Part shown: positions 39,258-57,719 of the stretch, piece by piece
Layout: every line of letters starts with the position of its first letter
How positions within the stretch are numbered: the first letter of the stretch is position 1
NCBI GenBank assembly: GCA_963969365.1
Contig: OZ017752.1
Location: 620,001 to 684,000, forward strand
Length of the DNA stretch: 64,000 bases
Direction: 5' to 3'
Source of the DNA: Asterochloris sp. CNOR1
Taxonomy: Eukaryota > Chlorophyta > Trebouxiophyceae > Trebouxiales > Trebouxiaceae
Made by a program: the position numbers and the translations under genes
The notes under the pieces: generated by a model
The model's input: the letters and a program-made list of their open reading frames with translations, nothing else
The model's database searches: none
Told to the model about the DNA's origin: nothing

Positions 39258-56396
<17,139 letters not shown>

Positions 56397-57564: not shown

Positions 57565-57708
57565 GTTCCACTGGCGCAATGGATAGCGCGTTAGACTTCT
57601 ATTCATTTTCAGGGAGGCATCTAAAGGTTGTGGTTCATTTGAGCTGCCAAATGGGTTCGAGGGGACCAATAAATCCCACAACACCTGAAGGTGTAGGATT
57701 GTGGAATG
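57565..57708 (+). tRNA. tRNA-Arg (anticodon UCU) with four introns
   Basis: Five segments (57565-57601, 57619-57633, 57655-57661, 57674-57679, 57701-57708) together make a 73-nt cloverleaf. The acceptor stem GUUCCAC pairs with GUGGAAU (one G:U), the D stem GCGC with GCGC, the anticodon stem UUAGA with UCUAA, and the T stem GUGGG with CCCAC. The T loop is the canonical UUCGAGU. The anticodon at 57,598-57,600 is UCU. Intron 1 (17 nt) sits at the usual 37/38 site. Introns 2 (about 21 nt, T stem, edges ambiguous by up to 2 nt), 3 (12 nt, T loop 59/60) and 4 (21 nt, 65/66) are at unusual sites. Introns 2 and 4 each contain a 5-bp hairpin. An A box (57,572-57,582) and a T5 Pol III stop support a real gene. 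CCA is not encoded. Confidence 0.85.
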
Positions 57709-57714
57709 GCACAG

Positions 57715-57719
57715 TTTTT
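57715..57719 (+). terminator. RNA polymerase III T5 terminator
   Basis: A run of five T residues begins seven bases after the tRNA discriminator base, the expected position for Pol III termination. Confidence 0.75.

Follow-up and report, generated by a model that had tools for sequence, protein, structure and literature searches.

The 64-kb window analysed here, by which we mean the whole stretch of DNA examined, probably contains a functional nuclear tRNA-Arg(UCU) gene whose cloverleaf is split by four introns and which is the only such AGA decoder that we found in this green algal genome. The gene occupies positions 57565-57708 of the window, on contig C7 of a genome of 56.4 Mb in 21 contigs, and a multi-intron tRNA-Arg(UCU) had been reported at this place in a first-pass annotation made from the letters alone; at the level of sequence, that observation is confirmed. 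The nuclear location also holds up, as C7 is neither the plastid contig, C21, nor the 110-kb contig C20, which is taken for the mitochondrion. With PDB chains 8q04 and 1gk8, which we take to be green algal rbcL, the rbcL gene on the plastid contig gives scores of 1063 and 1044 bits, and with 1bwv, presumably red algal, 599 bits.

Organization of the tRNA-Arg(UCU) gene

All parts of the locus lie on the plus strand. Exon 1 (57565-57601) supplies the 5' strand of the acceptor, the D arm and the anticodon arm to nt 37, with the anticodon TCT and an A box, TGGCGCAATGG, that starts at 57572. It is followed by intron 1 (57602-57618), which has 17 nt and sits at the canonical 37/38 position, and by exon 2 (57619-57633), covering nt 38-52 with the 3' side of the anticodon stem, the variable bases AGGTT and the T-stem bases GTGG. 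Intron 2 (57634-57654, 21 nt) interrupts the T stem and holds an ATTTG/CAAAT hairpin at 57637-57652; it can be slid as far as 57631-57651, that is from 52/53 to 49/50, with the spliced product unchanged. Then come a micro-exon, exon 3 (57655-57661, GTTCGAG, nt 53-59), and the 12-nt intron 3 (57662-57673) in the T loop at 59/60, for which 57661-57672 is an alternative at 58/59; the T loop reads TTCGAGT with the first cut and TTCGAAT with the second. Exon 4 is another micro-exon (57674-57679, TCCCAC, nt 60-65), intron 4 (57680-57700, 21 nt) falls at 65/66 with a hairpin, ACACC/GGTGT, in the register of a bulge-helix-bulge (BHB) inner helix, and exon 5 (57701-57708) provides the 3' strand of the acceptor and the discriminator G73. 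Six bases past the discriminator, a TTTTT run at 57715-57719 is a likely RNA polymerase III terminator. The exons therefore measure 37, 15, 7, 6 and 8 nt, and the introns 17, 21, 12 and 21 nt.

Most of what the first-pass annotation had claimed for this gene was recovered. Removing the four segments gives exactly 73 nt, as it had said, with the acceptor, D, anticodon and T stems all paired and a sole G.U at the first acceptor pair, 1-72, and the product carries GTGGGTTCGA. The A box, the T loop and the T5 run are present, both hairpins are where they had been placed, and the B box is indeed split by intron 3. The intron sites stand as assigned (37/38, T stem, T loop and 65/66), with the correction that introns 2 and 3 have the alternative cuts given above. 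The identity is likewise supported: ARAGORN identifies the 73-nt product as tRNA-Arg(tct), the anticodon is TCT, and in the four-intron reading the body is like that of other UCU tRNAs.

That a standard scan would miss the gene was also borne out. ARAGORN finds no tRNA in the unspliced sequence, neither ARAGORN nor Rfam at its gathering score reports the gene in the window, and a genome search with RF00005, in which 63 of 857 first-look candidates were scored, did not include the locus; relaxing that search to E <=10 added one further locus elsewhere.

The gene appears to have no nuclear counterpart. A genome search with the 73-mer matches this locus only. When the genome was scanned with four patterns for 5' halves of tRNAs whose D arm is intact, an approach that could miss divergent or D-arm-split UCU copies, one nuclear TCT half with a paired D stem was found. 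In the second nuclear TCT match, at C4:2402241, the D stem is unpaired and the parse score, 16.2, is at the level of the controls described below. The search for other AGA-decoding tRNAs proposed at first pass thus turned up no intact nuclear UCU copy by either route. Two other kinds of locus were ruled out here: a permuted tRNA gene, as the exons follow one another in the usual order, with the 3' half not upstream, and a tRNA-derived SINE, by the single locus returned with the 73-mer.

Three or four introns

The first-pass annotation had proposed running a multi-intron tRNA finder. We built a parser that starts from a supplied 5' half and continues it across any number of introns, each of which costs score. 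Its best parse of the locus has three introns and scores 32.2, and the four-intron reading scores 28.2; both outscore all 1,392 control sequences placed behind the same 5' half (692 window segments, maximum 23.6; 700 dinucleotide shuffles, maximum 24.5). In the three-intron alternative, which supposes the same mechanism, the 37/38 intron is kept, exon 3 is missing, a 35-nt T-loop intron runs from 57637 to 57671 and a 20-nt intron at 65/66 from 57681 to 57700, so that TTC is joined to AATC in a 72-nt tRNA with the T stem TGTGG/CCACA. This parse came out on top at all three intron costs tried, its product is also accepted by ARAGORN, and TTCAA T loops occur in the Asp and Pro-AGG tRNAs of the same genome. 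It requires, however, a 4-nt variable loop and the T loop TTCAATC, which are seen in 0 of 24 intact UCU tRNAs. In these tRNAs, which come from viral contigs (17 distinct) and were retrieved by a pattern resembling the Arg(UCU) 5' half, the distance between anticodon arm and T loop and the length of the variable loop equal those of the four-intron product in 24 of 24, and the T loop is TTCGA in 22. Moreover, three introns would leave GGGTTCGAG unused within the 35-nt intron and would cost intron 4 much of its BHB pairing, with one of four inner-helix pairs instead of four and two central pairs instead of three. We regard the three-intron alternative as unlikely and, given that the gene is real, consider four introns quite probable. 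The count of four given at first pass is the likelier one; the parser's top reading, which merges introns 2 and 3, speaks against it.

Introns in the nuclear tRNA genes

The four pattern scans gave 183 matches including those in organelles (53, 54, 61 and 15), from which the tRNA-looking nuclear ones were picked by eye. Two matches that had initially been passed over parse at control level (9.2-16.2), and 14 loci were left unparsed, being judged chance by eye (L036, L039-L042, L044, L046, L049, L052, L058, L061, L070, L085 and L086). The 45 parsed rows, less three tRNA-Cys-like repeats and one degenerate Trp and with Ile-TAT (L083) added by eye, make up a set of 42 nuclear tRNA genes; other Cys-like repeats (including L075-L079, L081 and L082) and the Ser-like L080 stand outside it. 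The survey is blind to D-arm introns, permuted genes and isoacceptors such as initiator Met or Lys-TTT. As the parser misread several genes (Lys, Phe, Gly-GCC, Leu-TAG and others), splice points there were set by hand from stem pairing and paralogs.

Introns are present in 26 of the 42 genes, and in 22 they lie outside 37/38. At least two introns are found in 14 of the 42: nine genes have two, four have three (both Gly-GCC copies and both Pro-AGG copies), and Arg(UCU) has four. Of the 46 introns, 15 are at 37/38; the other 31, with lengths of 11-38 nt and a median of 20, lie elsewhere. Among the latter, 12 are at 59/60 (11 by script, plus that of Ile-TAT), a label that for some introns is a choice among near-equivalent cuts, six are at 62/63 and three at 65/66; the remaining ten are in the T stem, variable loop, anticodon stem and acceptor. 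The T-loop site 59/60 corresponds to the anticodon-loop site 37/38: each lies between loop bases six and seven above a 5-bp stem. In the Phe and Gly-GCC copies there is an apparent micro-exon of about 3 nt between T-arm introns, although the 3-nt micro-exon GCC is a hand reading, the parser output having micro-exons of 2-4 nt at that point. All 26 intron-bearing genes match their loci letter for letter. ARAGORN accepts every one of their spliced forms with the expected anticodon, and 16 of the 26 go undetected by it when unspliced.

BHB register of the introns

Cleavage at a BHB motif falls after the second bulge base. The register that we tested sets the four bases ending 2 nt before the 5' cut against the four intron bases ending 2 nt before the 3' cut; the available text of one review describes the motif as two 3-nt bulges flanking a 4-bp helix (PMC3978253). 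In this register the 30 testable non-canonical introns (that of Leu-TAG was left out because its 5' exon is too short) form 92 of 120 possible pairs and 12 full helices, compared with 68.3 pairs (sd 4.6, maximum 84) and 2.8 full helices (maximum 8) in 2,000 shuffles that preserve the sliding of the introns. Among 64 shifted registers the highest counts are 81 and 80 pairs, both from diagonal neighbours, in which the helix is shared; pairing in the inner intron helix is likewise highest at the BHB register. When one copy per paralog pair is kept, leaving 23 introns, there are 71 pairs against 52.1 in shuffles, or 68 against 52.0 if the other copies are used, values reached in none of 2,000 shuffles in either case. 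The two Ser-GCT introns keep both helices despite their different sequence. For the 15 canonical introns the BHB register is weakly the best (43 pairs against 31.2 shuffled, with 41 in the next register), and there is no inner-helix peak. As a set, the non-canonical introns fit the archaeal BHB register.

Within Arg(UCU), intron 1 has four of four central pairs, and intron 4 has three of four together with a full inner helix. Intron 2 has at best three of four, with the cut at 49/50 or 51/52, and intron 3 has one of four at 59/60 and three of four at 58/59. The suggestion made at first pass that introns of this gene could form BHB substrates can thus be maintained for introns 1 and 4 and partly for intron 2, but intron 3 fits poorly; the reading as BHB-type processing is strengthened by the non-canonical introns of 21 other nuclear tRNA genes. 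The lowest-energy predicted fold of the precursor has GUUGUGG/CCACAAC around the intron 2 hairpin, plus a GGUUC/GGACC hairpin, and, as a point against our reading, lacks an anticodon stem. In this fold intron 1 (57604-57613) pairs with intron 4 (57684-57693) at ten positions, which may be chance. In the inner part of the model, cleavage at the 5' end of intron 3 would fall within a loop and cleavage at its 3' end within a bulge, an arrangement that might be read as a bulge-helix-loop.

Introns rather than decay

Paralogs offer a view of how these segments behave. The intron-bearing and intronless copies of Ala-AGC differ solely by one 12-nt insertion, and those of Asp-GTC solely by two insertions, of 13 and 20 nt. 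In five pairs in which both copies have introns, the mature sequences agree at 71/71, 72/72, 81/81, 73/73 and, for Phe, 71/73 positions, with the proviso that the hand-set splice points of the Phe and Gly-GCC pairs were placed so that a few bases at the junctions match. The Phe copies differ by one compensatory pair, C6-G67 to T6-A67, whose two bases lie on either side of two introns. Intron identity in the same five pairs ranges from 53% (19/36) to 81% (13/16). A run of four T begins no more than 20 nt past the 3' end in 22 of the 26 intron-bearing genes and at 2.1% of random window places, a criterion that played no part in the parse.

These comparisons bear on the possibility that Arg(UCU) is an unexpressed tRNA-Arg pseudogene, or a tRNA-derived repeat, broken by insertions. 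Most eukaryotic D- and T-arm insertions are taken for pseudogenes in the available part of one review (PMC4090602), and a tRNA-Cys-like repeat family is present in this genome. Yet every stem of Arg(UCU) is intact, the T5 is in place, the locus is single and no other nuclear AGA decoder was found by our searches, and similar introns recur throughout the genome with exons conserved, introns drifting and the BHB register fixed; we consider decay very improbable. Even more remote is a chance array of tRNA-like words 3' of a real 5' half, since, for all the freedom that multi-intron parsing leaves, neither Arg(UCU) score was reached by any of the 692 window segments or the 700 shuffles.

A proposed processing pathway

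If the four-intron gene is functional, RNA polymerase III would transcribe it by way of the A box and of an internal B box that intron 3 splits. The tRNA-splicing endonuclease, Sen2/Sen34 with Sen54/Sen15, would then cut each intron at a BHB or at a relaxed bulge-helix-loop, and to do so it must recognize the BHB structure around each site, beyond measuring how far the site lies from the mature tRNA body. The 37/38 intron would probably be the last to be removed, after those in the T arm and at 65/66, an order reported for one Cyanidioschyzon merolae tRNA, and the five exons might be joined by an RtcB-type or Trl1-type ligase. Homologs of the Sen34 and Sen2 catalytic domains are present in the genome. 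The matches to Sen54 (25.6 bits against a cut-off of 24, with an in-frame stop) and Sen15 (24 bits against a cut-off of 22) are weak. RtcB-like exons lie at two separate places, G000:C3:2766353-2770095 and C13:184511-190023, perhaps two genes.

We are inclined to think that a nucleus of the green lineage has taken up an archaea-like tRNA architecture, with BHB introns from acceptor to T arm in about half of the genes, as many as four in a single gene, micro-exons as short as about 3 nt, an apparently complete Sen2/34/54/15 and gains recent enough that intron-bearing and intronless copies coexist. The eukaryotic tRNA endonuclease has been described as a ruler that places its cut at 37/38; should our proposal be right, some thirty non-canonical introns would mean that a Sen enzyme of the plant lineage reads BHB motifs. 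It would also help to explain the incomplete tRNA sets obtained with standard scanners, and the coexisting copies would offer a natural series for tRNA intron gain and the order of removal.

Relation to known disrupted tRNA genes

The closest resemblance is to the red alga C. merolae, for which the available text gives at least 12 multi-intron tRNA genes, three of them with three introns (PMC9602550). There, as here, non-canonical BHB introns occur in several arms of nuclear tRNA genes and several in one gene, and over 62% of the tRNA genes of C. merolae contain introns. The present case differs in its host, a green alga, in having four introns in one gene, in its micro-exons of about 3, 6 and 7 nt, in introns at 62/63, at 65/66 and in the acceptor, and in a possible Sen15, none having been found in C. 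merolae according to the part of a review available to us (PMC4090602). The nucleomorph of Guillardia theta has short D- and T-arm tRNA introns, up to three per gene, whose excision was confirmed by RT-PCR (Kawach 2005 and Maruyama 2010, as described in PMC4090602 and PMC3978253, both in part), but many of them form no defined BHB motif, and the genome considered here is a free nuclear one. On chlorarachniophytes, whose nucleomorph is of green algal origin, the accessible sections of the reviews conflict, one listing non-canonical introns (PMC4090602) and the other almost none (PMC3978253). Archaea of the Thermoproteales also have BHB introns at many places in the cloverleaf, and multi-intron genes are common among them; these differ from our case in a stated maximum of three introns per gene and in the archaeal endonuclease (PMC8450103, PMC4033280, as far as their available text goes).

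Disrupted nuclear tRNA genes of another kind are known in the green lineage. Permuted tRNA genes are described for prasinophytes (PMC3978253, in part) and for the trebouxiophyte Auxenochlorella, in which the tRNAscan-SE set is incomplete (PMC12636532, in part); the halves are reversed there, whereas the exon order here is normal. The same portion of PMC3978253 states that green algae have almost no tRNAs with ectopic introns, although its table includes a 27/28 intron in a permuted Ostreococcus Ser gene. One sentence in the available text of PMC4033280 mentions multiple-intron and permuted tRNAs for C. merolae and green algae, with no example, and a scanner paper from 2021, in the part available, limits eukaryotic tRNA genes to one intron and archaeal ones to up to three (PMC8450103). 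In the open-licence literature searched we found no multi-intron tRNA gene from a green algal nucleus. The accessible portions of these sources give at most three introns per tRNA gene, in agreement with the statement made at first pass that no green algal nuclear tRNA with four was known. As far as these sources go, the kind of gene is already known, and the novelty lies in the lineage of the host, in how widespread the introns are, in the four introns of one gene and in the micro-exons.

Other tRNA-like sequences and individual introns

At 39968-40061 of the window ARAGORN reports a tRNA-Cys (gca), which is probably a false positive; Rfam at its gathering score finds no tRNA in the window. 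A tRNA-Cys-like repeat occurs on several chromosomes (L020-L025, L038, L072, L073, L075-L079, L081 and L082), most copies sharing a tail (CACCCCCACCCAGGGTATAAATT...), and is probably a tRNA-derived SINE family. The Ser(UGA)-like tRNA at G000:C10:822993-823060 (L080) is without a matching acceptor strand and is either a pseudogene or a further disrupted gene. Beside the intron-bearing tRNA-Trp gene there is a degenerate second Trp-like copy on the minus strand (L062, G000:C4:2065143), which has a parse score of 13.2 and no sensible parse. The 59/60 intron of the tRNA-Trp gene itself (L062) is flanked by two copies of GATTCA, as if it had been gained by a short duplication. In tRNA-Leu(TAG) (L063), the 5' strand of the acceptor is interrupted at 5/6 by 17 nt, whose removal would restore seven acceptor pairs.
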